Source: an uncultured Gammaproteobacteria bacterium (GTDB lineage Bacteria > Pseudomonadota > Gammaproteobacteria > GCA-001735895). Taken from it: DNA of 64,000 nt. Below are positions 14,691 to 32,795 of the stretch, piece by piece; positions within the stretch are counted from its first letter, which is position 1; every line of letters begins with the position of its first letter. The DNA is taken from NCBI GenBank assembly GCA_947260025.1, contig CAMYON010000029.1:1-64000 (forward strand), in the 5' to 3' direction. A program made the position numbers and the translations under genes. The notes below the pieces were generated by a model. The model did not search any database and was not told where the DNA came from. It saw only the letters and a list, made by a program, of their open reading frames with translations.

Positions 14691-14885
14691 GGCAACCGCC
14701 GGAACCCCGCGCGACTGACAGGGTGGCCTGCGGCTTCCCGAAAAAGGGTGAATTTTTTAGGGCAAGGCGATACGCGACGTCCCTGTCGCGAATCGCCACA
14801 GGCCACGTCCATGTGGCCTGACCCTAAAAAATTCACCCTTTTTCGGCACCCTGTCTTTAGGTCGCGCGGGGTTGCGGCGGTTGCC
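14691..14885 (-). repeat. Palindromic element E1 (long form), reverse orientation
   Basis: Outer stem GGCAACCGCC..CCCCGCGCGAC / GTCGCGCGGGG..GGCGGTTGCC; inner stem 14738-14762 / 14822-14846; two apical hairpins at 14766-14797 and 14799-14820. Confidence 0.9.
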
Positions 14886-14942
14886 TTTCAGAATCCAAAG
14901 TTTGTAAAGTCGTAGCTCCAGTATCTAAACCCCAGGACGCCT

Positions 14943-15015
14943 GGGGTCAGACCCCGGTTTTCGCCAACGCTTTCGTACCCGGCCACCCATAGTTCCAAAA
15001 CCGGGCTCTGACCCC
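14943..15015. repeat. REP-like palindrome GGGGTCAGA-CCCCGGTTTT...AAAACCGGG-TCTGACCCC
   Basis: Arms GGGGTCAGAcCCCGGTTTT and AAAACCGGGcTCTGACCCC read directly; preceded by CCCCAGGACGCCTGGGG at 14930-14946. Confidence 0.8.
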
Positions 15016-15109
15016 TTCGAAGCGACCTGGCACATTAATCAATCGAAGCACATTGTTTCAGTCTGAATACAGCGACAGATTGACCTTCTGATAATTGGGC
15101 AACCAGAGG

Positions 15110-15300
15110 CAGCTGGCACGGTTCACCGCAACCTAAAGACCGGGTGCCGAAAAGGCTCGTTTTTTAAAGGGTCAGGTGGCATGGACGCCACCTGTGGCGA
15201 TCCGCGACATGGATGTCGCGTATCGCCTTGCCCTTTAAAAAACGAGCCTTTTCGGGAAGCCGCAGGCCACCCGGTCAGTCGCGGTGAACTGTGCCAGCTG
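15110..15300 (+). repeat. Palindromic element E2 (long form), forward orientation
   Basis: Outer stem CAGCTGGCACgGTTCACCGC / GCGGTGAACtGTGCCAGCTG; inner stem 15147-15171 / 15231-15255; apical hairpins 15173-15194 and 15196-15227. Confidence 0.9.
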
Positions 15301-15326
15301 TCGGATTGATTGAAGACCGACTCAGG

Positions 15327-30703: not shown

Positions 30704-30790
30704 CCTTAAGAAATGTATACCCGGGTGTCAACCACGAGTAACGCTGCGGCGACGTTGATCACGCAATCGAATTACTTTATTCTGCCGCCC

Positions 30791-31165
30791 ATGCCGCTCT
30801 CTGAAGATATCGTCACCAGTCGCCATCGATTCACTTCCTATGGCCCCGCTTCTGTCACCATCAACGAAGTGGTCTACCGGCAAAGCCTGGTGCTAACTGC
30901 CAACGACATCTACAGCCCATGGGCGGTCTCCTCAATCGAGGACCTGAACCCCGAAAACCTGGCGCTCGTGCTCGAATCGAAACCCGCGGTTGTCCTGCTC
31001 GGTACCGGTGAACAGCAACGCTTTCCCGATGCCAGGACTTTCGCCCTGTTCGGCGAACAGGGCATCGGCCTCGAAGTCATGGACAATGGCGCGCTGTGCC
31101 GCACCTTCAACATCCTCGTCGCCGAAGACCGCGCCGTCACCGCCGCTGTCATACTTGGCAGCTAG
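30791..31165 (+). CDS. Mth938-like (DUF498) domain protein
   Basis: RFTSYGPASVTINEVVYRQSLVLTANDIYSPW; KPAVVLLGTGEQQRFPD. Confidence 0.82.
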   Translation: MPLSEDIVTSRHRFTSYGPASVTINEVVYRQSLVLTANDIYSPWAVSSIEDLNPENLALVLESKPAVVLLGTGEQQRFPDARTFALFGEQGIGLEVMDNGALCRTFNILVAEDRAVTAAVILGS

Positions 31166-31194
31166 GAACTTCTAGCCGTTAAAACGTCCCAGGC

Positions 31195-31302
31195 GGCAAC
31201 CGCAGGCCACCCTCTCGACTGACCAGTTTGTCTGCGGCTTCCCAAGAAAGGGTGTTTTCAGGACAACCGGTCTTTATGTCGAGAGGGGGGCCTGCGGTTG
31301 CC
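31195..31302 (-). repeat. Palindromic element E3 (short form), reverse orientation
   Basis: Outer stem GGCAACCGCAGGC..CCCTCTCGAC / GTCGAGAGGG..GCCTGCGGTTGCC; core TAAAGACCGGTTGTCC..GGGAAGCCGCAGACAAACTGGTCAGTCG on the minus strand. Confidence 0.9.
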
Positions 31303-31563
31303 TCTGAAATAGCATGGAAGACTCATATCCTTTTCTCGGAGACCGCAATCAACAATTGACTGCCGTCAGGTTCTAAATAGCTGAGATAATCTTTTCCTGA
31401 ATTGTCGGAAATAACTCGTTACGCGAGATGAATCGTCGAATCGCAAGTTGCAATCCCTGAACATGGTTCGACACGTTGGACCGGCAGTACCCAGTATTTT
31501 TGGCTGGGCATTCGAATGTTTTCTCGGAAATTAGATTCAGAATCGTTGAACATAAAGTCGGAA

Positions 31564-31671
31564 GGCAACCGGAGGCGTCACTTTCGACATAAAGGCCGGT
31601 TGTCCTGAACACATACACTCGTGGGAAGCCACAGGCAAACCGGCCAGTCGAAAGTGACGTCTTCGGTTGCC
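31564..31671 (+). repeat. Palindromic element E4 (short form), forward orientation
   Basis: Outer stem GGCAACCG..GTCACTTTCGAC / GTCGAAAGTGAC..CGGTTGCC; core TAAAGGCCGGTTGTCC..GGGAAGCCACAGGCAAACCGGCCAGTCG. Confidence 0.9.
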
Positions 31672-31722
31672 GTTTGGGAAGATAATGGTCCCGCGACCTG
31701 GCCGCGGGATGACAGGGAAAGG

Positions 31723-32795
31723 TTATTCTTCGATGATGTTTTCGCGGGAGTAGCCGCTGTGCTCGAGGATGCGGCGCAGCTTGCGCAGCGCGTCCATCTG
31801 GATCTGGCGCACGCGCTCCCGGGTCACGCCGAGCTCGAGCCCGACTTCTTCCAGCGTGCCGCGCGGATGATTGCGCAAACCGAAACGGCGCACCACGACA
31901 TCGCGCTGTTTTTCGTCGAGCTCGTCGAGCCAGCTGTCGAGATGCTTGATGACGCTTTCGTCCTGCAGGATGCTGGACGGATCGGGATTGCTGTCATCCG
32001 GAATCACGTCGAGTAGCGGGCGCTCGCCTTCGCCACCCATCGGAATATCGAAGGATGACACCCGGTCGGCCAGTTTGAACATTTTCTCGACGTCCTTGAC
32101 CGGCTTCTTCAACAGCTGGGCGACATCCTCGGGAGTCGCCTCGCGATTCAATTCCTGGGTCAGCTTGCGCGCCGCCCTGAGGTAAGTGTTCAGTTCCTTG
32201 ATAACGTGAATCGGCAGGCGAATGGTGCGGGTCTGGTTCATCAACCCGCGCTCGATAGTCTGCCGTATCCACCAGGTCGCGTAGGTCGAAAAGCGAAAAC
32301 CGCGTTCCGGATCGAATTTCTCGACCGCGCGGATCAGGCCGAGATTGCCCTCTTCGATCAAATCCAGCAACGCCAGACCACGATTCATGTAACGCCGTGC
32401 GATTTTGACCACCAGGCGCAGGTTGCATTCGATCATCTTGTCGCGCGCGGCGGTGTCGCCTTTCAACGCGAGGCGTGAGTAGTACACTTCTTCTTCGGCG
32501 GTTAACAGCGGGGAGACTTCGATTTCCTTGAGATAAAGCCGCGTCGGGTCGGCATCGGATCTTCCGGCTTGCGACGCTCGGTGAACTTTTCAGCTTCGAT
32601 TACCTCTGCGTCATTATCGTCGTCATCGTCGTCGTCATCATCATCATCATCATTGATAATGGTCGCTTGCTCGGAATCTTCTTCTTCGTCATCCGCCAGC
32701 TTCGCAGCCTCCTGGTCTTCGACAAGGTCTTCCACCAGGTCTTCGGCTGGTATTTCGGTATCTTCGATAAGCGACTTATCGGTAGATTTGGTCAT
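31723..32795 (-). pseudogene. rpoS: RNA polymerase sigma factor RpoS, reading frame interrupted
   Basis: N-terminus in ORF 32502-32795; region 1.2 ([34 protein letters not shown]) and all later regions in another frame; nlpD-rpoS synteny. Confidence 0.85.

Follow-up and report, generated by a model that had tools for sequence, protein, structure and literature searches.

Mirror-paired TwoAYGGAY-type elements at convergent gene ends: an internally deleted pair beside rpoS and candidate CsrA-binding modules among its relatives

The junction between the convergent DUF498 and rpoS genes holds two inverted elements, E3 and E4 (pair B), which alignment with their relatives shows to be an internally deleted pair of the TwoAYGGAY type (RF01731). 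The intact modules of this type are candidate CsrA-binding sites in the 3'-UTRs of converging mRNAs, and we give this reading about an even chance of being right. TwoAYGGAY is an RNA motif described in 2010 (Weinberg et al. 2010, PMC2864571), and no function was reported for it in the literature searched. The motif is thus already known; its paired anatomy, the rule that ties it to convergent gene ends, the related families X and Y and the evidence for a constrained strand were not found in that literature. Pair B alone is an eroded member, and its interest lies in the system around it, in which a known RNA family is arranged in a new way.

The short-form pair at the DUF498/rpoS junction

E3 lies at 31195-31302 of the window (the whole stretch of 64,000 nucleotides that was analysed) on the + strand, in the 'L' orientation, and E4, its mirror image, lies at 31564-31671 on the - strand. 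Both are short-form elements of 108 bp that start with GGCAACCG and end with CGGTTGCC. Their 25-nt arms (31195-31219 and 31278-31302 in E3, 31564-31588 and 31647-31671 in E4) are 96% and 92% complementary, respectively, and enclose loops of 58 nt. The folding energies of both elements are 7-11 SD below those of dinucleotide shuffles on either strand. When E3 and E4 were compared as inverted repeats, arms of 117 nt with 79% complementarity were found, with 259-261 bp between them. The spacer (31303-31563, 261 bp) is unrelated in sequence to those of three further pairs, A, C and D. The DUF498 gene (30755-31165, + strand) stops 29 bp short of E3, and the C-terminal 254 codons of rpoS (31723-32487, - strand) end 51 bp from E4, with both genes converging upon the pair. 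The original prediction had described this geometry, a reverse and a forward element of 108 bp about 260 bp apart between convergent genes, and it proved exact. Within 31723-32795, the rpoS open frame has 288 codons compared to about 354-378 in congeners, and a coding-like ORF in a different frame is present upstream of rpoS (32502-32795); a frameshift in rpoS, either genuine or an assembly error, is probable.

We refer to the strand on which Rfam reads RF01731 as F; it is the candidate functional RNA strand, - for E3 and + for E4. The outer flank of E3 (31187-31194) is TCCCAGGC, or GCCTGGGA on the F strand, and contains a conserved GGA motif 5-9 nt past the F hairpin; the mirror copy of this motif, GTTTGGGA, is at 31672-31679 beside E4. 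A small terminator-like hairpin (TCCCGCGGCCAGGTCGCGGGA, tail CCATTATCTT; 31689-31709, - strand) is located directly 3' of rpoS, ahead of E4.

E3 and E4 had no RF01731 match in Rfam, even at E 10, and the only other Rfam matches for pair B were chance miRNA-like ones. The family link is provided by pair A (14691 to about 15310), which has the pair B layout plus an inner double hairpin. The left element of pair A (14691-14885, + strand) is full length, with TwoAYGGAY occupying its interior on the - strand (14853-14731). The right element (15098-15310, - strand) is also full length with an eroded foot, and here the TwoAYGGAY interior is on the + strand (15140-15262). The RF01731 scores in Rfam were 61.6 and 55.3 bits for pair A, 54.3 for pair D and 44 for a related element, Y, with a gathering score of 43. 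Eight elements from four pairs align as one family, E, with a shared layout of a GGCAACCG foot, ~13 drifting bp, a CGAC head, an inner stem GACCGG..CCGGTC and a conserved GGCCTGCGGCTTCCC. Pair B scores nothing because RF01731 corresponds to the inner domain, which is missing from E3 and E4; the AYGGAY-loop hairpins, present in full-length E elements of the same genome and of congeners, are absent from both. Homology and orthology together mark pair B as a deletion derivative rather than a full RF01731 member. Phage and plasmid collections gave no match. Integron attC sites were also considered, and no matching core boxes were seen by eye. Within the spacer of pair A, at 14932-15018, there is a smaller inverted repeat (GGGGTCAGACCCC / GGGCTCTGACCCC) that looks like a separate REP-like element.

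The rpoS/DUF498 junction was compared in 30 genomes of the genus. E4 is full-length and E3 short in G017, whereas in G028 E3 is full-length and E4 has collapsed to GGCAACTGCAGTTGCC. In G023 the junction holds a single palindrome whose left half comes from one element and whose right half comes from the other. The short E3 retains CCTGAAAA..ACCCTT, which is one arm of the inner stem that is complete in G028. This remaining arm, together with the full-length orthologues, shows that the short form is derived, as expected after an internal deletion. From alignment with the full-length G028 E3 and G017 E4, the E3 deletion junction is placed approximately at 31252-31272 (GTGTTTTCAGGACAACCGG), where the one-arm remnant stands beside the base of the inner stem. 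The original prediction was right that pair B repeats the mirror arrangement of pair A and that the double-hairpin insert is absent from it, but these orthologues indicate that the insert is better regarded as lost. The E4 junction, GTGTTCAGGACAACCGG on the - strand, resembles that of E3. Source-genome E4 shares the junction TTCAGGACAACCGG with E3 even though G017 E4 is full-length, and the simplest reading is that the E4 loop was probably converted by E3. In the rpoS tree G028 adjoins the source genome (G000), so that the full-length E3 of G028 was either retained or restored by conversion. At rpoS, then, the module has been lost and the stem kept, and the related genomes offer a natural series of full-length, half-deleted and missing modules after one gene. 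In G014, which has neither E nor X, a different inverted repeat family (GGGGACAGA...TCTGTCCCC, 20-bp arms) occurs twice downstream of rpoS.

Pairing, orientation and the constrained strand

The source genome was surveyed by searches and retrieved stretches, with genes from a home-made caller, and five pairs were found: A, B, C (contig 67), D (contig 16) and a Y-Y pair (contig 1) located between GreA-like and YhbY-like genes, which were named from their translations alone. Each of the five occupies a convergent junction, and the sense of mirroring is the same throughout. Convergent junctions make up 10 of the 64 gene junctions in the window, and a pair is present in two of the 10. The genus contains three related families, E (= RF01731), X and Y. 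Family X has a 27-bp stem and up to about 50 copies per genome; family Y has a 29-bp stem and up to 17 copies in X-bearing genomes, with one Y reaching the RF01731 cut-off. For E and X, 116 contexts had a gene call on either side, and these comprised 82 convergent, 34 co-directional and 0 divergent junctions, compared to 12, 73 and 37, respectively, for background junctions of the same stretches; since genes were called heuristically and orthologous loci are included, these counts do not represent independent events. The distance from stop codon to element core is about 60 bp. Distinct E/X pairs were inverted in the same sense in 28 of 28 cases, and X-Y pairs, by inspection, in 16 of 18. Inverted pairing at convergent 3' ends is therefore a real rule, beyond a chance agreement between two loci. 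The layout had originally been tied to convergent 3' ends on the basis of two loci, with random orientation or single arms as the outcome that would speak against it; neither was observed in the wider survey.

Selection at the RNA level is evident from the stems. Covariation extends along the full length of the outer stems: in 38 of them, 97.1% of cells are paired compared to 30-48% when the arms are slid, and both-sided changes are seen at 24 of the 25 outer-stem pairs. Strand-symmetric mutation in a palindrome yields G.T and A.C mismatches in equal numbers. On the F strand, G.U:A.C was 26:8 in E, 46:11 in X and 22:0 in Y, giving a pooled ratio of 94:19 (p = 4e-13, taken as independent). This G.U excess shows that the RNA read from F is what is constrained. 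A role of the palindromes as DNA (as supercoiling buffers, cruciforms or protein-binding sites, with perfection kept by template-switch repair) would fit stems that are very perfect and drift freely in the middle, and both the collapsed pair of G023 and the probable loop conversion between E3 and E4 indicate DNA-level exchange between copies. A double-strand role nevertheless predicts equal G.T and A.C rather than the observed 94:19, and we regard it as highly improbable.

The F strands of paired elements point outward, so that the F module at the end of each converging transcript would be that of the element closer to the other gene. F is the strand opposite to that of the nearest gene, which counts against the CsrA-module reading. 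An F-strand promoter belonging to the elements seems unlikely: only a weak box, T...AA.T...GA, is present upstream on F, the pair B spacer has no consensus promoter, and the 13-nt linkers of E-X units are too short to hold one. Pairing is not significantly relaxed in the short forms, with outer-stem mismatches of 6.4% in short and 4.6% in long copies (p = 0.37). The hexaloops have thus been lost without visible release of the stems, which may serve another role or stay perfect through template switching.

CsrA-type loops and the ends of converging mRNAs

Read on F, full-length elements of families E, X and Y contain two ANGGAN-loop hairpins, often inside ACA(G/U)GGAUGU, and almost all first hairpins of full-length E have ANGGAN. 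SELEX with CsrA gave the consensus RUACARGGAUGU, ANGGAN hexaloops are contacted by RsmE, and a single CsrA dimer can span sites separated by 10-63 nt (PMC7652899); the two GGAs of the full-length module are about 33 nt apart. A third GGA, 5-9 nt past the F stem, is found in 32 of 44 E copies compared to 14 expected (0 of 2000 shuffles); X shows a weaker form of this tendency. Full-length relatives have ANGGA loops at two or more sites, and pair B, with its hairpins lost, does not. The original description of pair B had overlooked these CsrA-type loops, as well as the TwoAYGGAY membership and the deletion origin of the short form.

CsrA is encoded in the genus. The source assembly (94% complete genome) yielded only a 64-aa CsrA paralogue, and the canonical csrA of congeners is missing from it. 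Several congeners bearing E, X or Y have a divergent 67-aa CsrA paralogue (MLVLGCTNHQSVIID...) or a tandem two-domain CsrA of 112-147 codons. Extra csrA paralogues were found in 11 of 14 element-bearing congeners compared to 1 of 17 others (p = 9e-5); as the genomes are related and incomplete, this association is confounded by kinship and is a lead only. G016, with ~20 Y-like matches and a single csrA, runs against it.

In two genomes of another gammaproteobacterial family, G192 and G302, RF01731 elements likewise form outward-facing pairs. Some of their second loops are ACACGA and have no GGA, which weakens the CsrA reading outside the source genus. These RF01731 pairs have 14-bp hairpins and outward-pointing, T-rich tails at their flanks (GGGGTGTCYTTCTTTTCG), which gives the impression of a separate terminator for each F strand. 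In G044, another gammaproteobacterial genome, at least 21 weak matches to RF01731 were found, most of them confined to the inner hairpins.

The intact module, read from F, consists of a long outer stem with a conserved GGCAACCG foot and CGAC head and a ~13 bp middle that drifts with full compensation; inside it are the inner stem and the two small ANGGAN hairpins, ~33 nt apart and of the kind bridged by one CsrA/RsmA dimer, with the further GGA usually 5-9 nt beyond the module stem. With two such modules back to back and F strands outward between convergent genes, read-through from either gene would give an mRNA ending with exactly one F module before the opposite gene. We propose, as the most likely reading, that a module in the 3'-UTR would then bind CsrA, either titrating it or marking or stabilising mRNA ends. 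At rpoS in the source genome, both modules have been stripped of their hexaloop hairpins by internal deletion, E4 probably via conversion from E3. Pair B would consequently be a weak or dead CsrA site, with the long stems and the GGA after each stem left.

In a second explanation, the pair is a bidirectional 3'-end module that allows Rho-dependent release and exonuclease trimming to a distal long hairpin and prevents antisense runs into the other gene, the GGA loops being secondary. The convergent placement, the mirror layout and the ~60 bp from stop to core would suit such a module, as would a structurally constrained F strand that supplies each transcript with a distal hairpin, the survival of long stems in short forms, and the outer ends in G192/G302 that run into T-rich tails such as GGGGTGTCTTTCTTTTCG. 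In the source genus the hairpins have no T tract behind them, rpoS already has a small terminator-like hairpin, about a quarter of the contexts are co-directional, and the conserved ANGGAN loops and post-stem GGA would be left unexplained; we consider this explanation possible but doubtful. An intrinsic terminator was rejected for pair B, since no T run follows either hairpin end. The terminator originally suggested for the pair is thus not supported in the usual sense.

If the CsrA reading is correct, the anatomy, orientation and strand bias give TwoAYGGAY a concrete and testable function, namely CsrA docking on converging mRNA tails. A global regulator would then be buffered by dozens of mRNA tails rather than by a few sRNAs, and a repeat family resembling REPs would gain a role at the RNA level. 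As a tentative extension, which we think improbable as a whole, up to about 70 mirror-paired modules in this marine lineage might give many unrelated mRNAs a single CsrA-dimer docking site each in the 3'-UTR. They would then form a distributed network that titrates CsrA or tags mRNA ends, moves about as a mobile unit and has evolved together with the extra CsrA paralogues.

Mobility and comparison with known repeat and RNA families

The pair may instead be a non-autonomous mobile or selfish unit, REPIN-like, that is tolerated at convergent 3' ends as the least harmful place. The patchy distribution among species, the high copy numbers (as many as ~50 of X and 17 of Y in one genome) and the presence of RF01731 in 18 of 274 sampled gammaproteobacterial genomes are consistent with this. 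Units of E and X joined by a constant 13-nt linker are found at several loci, and at rpoS the unit has one orientation in G007, G019 and G020 and the opposite in their sister species G002, G009 and G030. REPs, too, are often located between convergent genes (PMC1525189), and REPINs consist of inverted doublets that show compensatory changes (PMC3116915). On the other hand, the spacers of E-E pairs have no common sequence, no target duplication is visible, no recent identical copies are present in the source genome, and neither PF01797 transposase genes nor csrA paralogues have an element nearby. Neutral tolerance also leaves the one-strand G.U bias and the conserved GGA loops unexplained. We judge this explanation unlikely. 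A REP/RAYT system was rejected on the nine PF01797 (Y1 transposase) genes of five genomes, none of which has E or X within 1.5 kb or before the contig end. The composite mobile unit of the original prediction is thus partly supported, by E-X units that recur and differ in orientation at rpoS, but no transposase, target duplication or recent copy was found.

The elements share with REPs, BIMEs and REPINs their form as dispersed intergenic palindromes, the inverted doublets, the convergent preference and the compensatory stem changes. They differ in their arms of 25-29 bp, loops of 58-160 nt, units of 108-200 bp and unrelated pair spacers, and in having no RAYT nearby, a strand-specific wobble bias and CsrA-type loops. 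Pairs A, D and Y-Y have the inner stem of TwoAYGGAY and, on the same strand as in that RNA, its two AYGGAY loops. The RF01731 model, judging by its matches, spans this inner part only, and the outer 25-bp stem with its drifting middle, the mirror pairing, the convergent-end rule and the third GGA lie beyond it. RF01731 and CsrB belong to the same Rfam clan, CL00106. The literature searched on CsrA together with repeats, sponges or 3'-UTRs contained nothing relevant. The CsrA SELEX hairpins have short stems (PMC7652899), whereas the stems here are very stable. Hairpin ANGGA loops and multiple sites per RNA are, like the clan, common to these modules and to CsrB/RsmB and RsmX/Y/Z (RF00018). Those RNAs, however, are free-standing sRNA genes with many sites, whereas the modules described here have two (plus one) sites and no recognisable promoter and terminator, and occur as many dispersed copies, in inverted pairs, at gene 3' ends.
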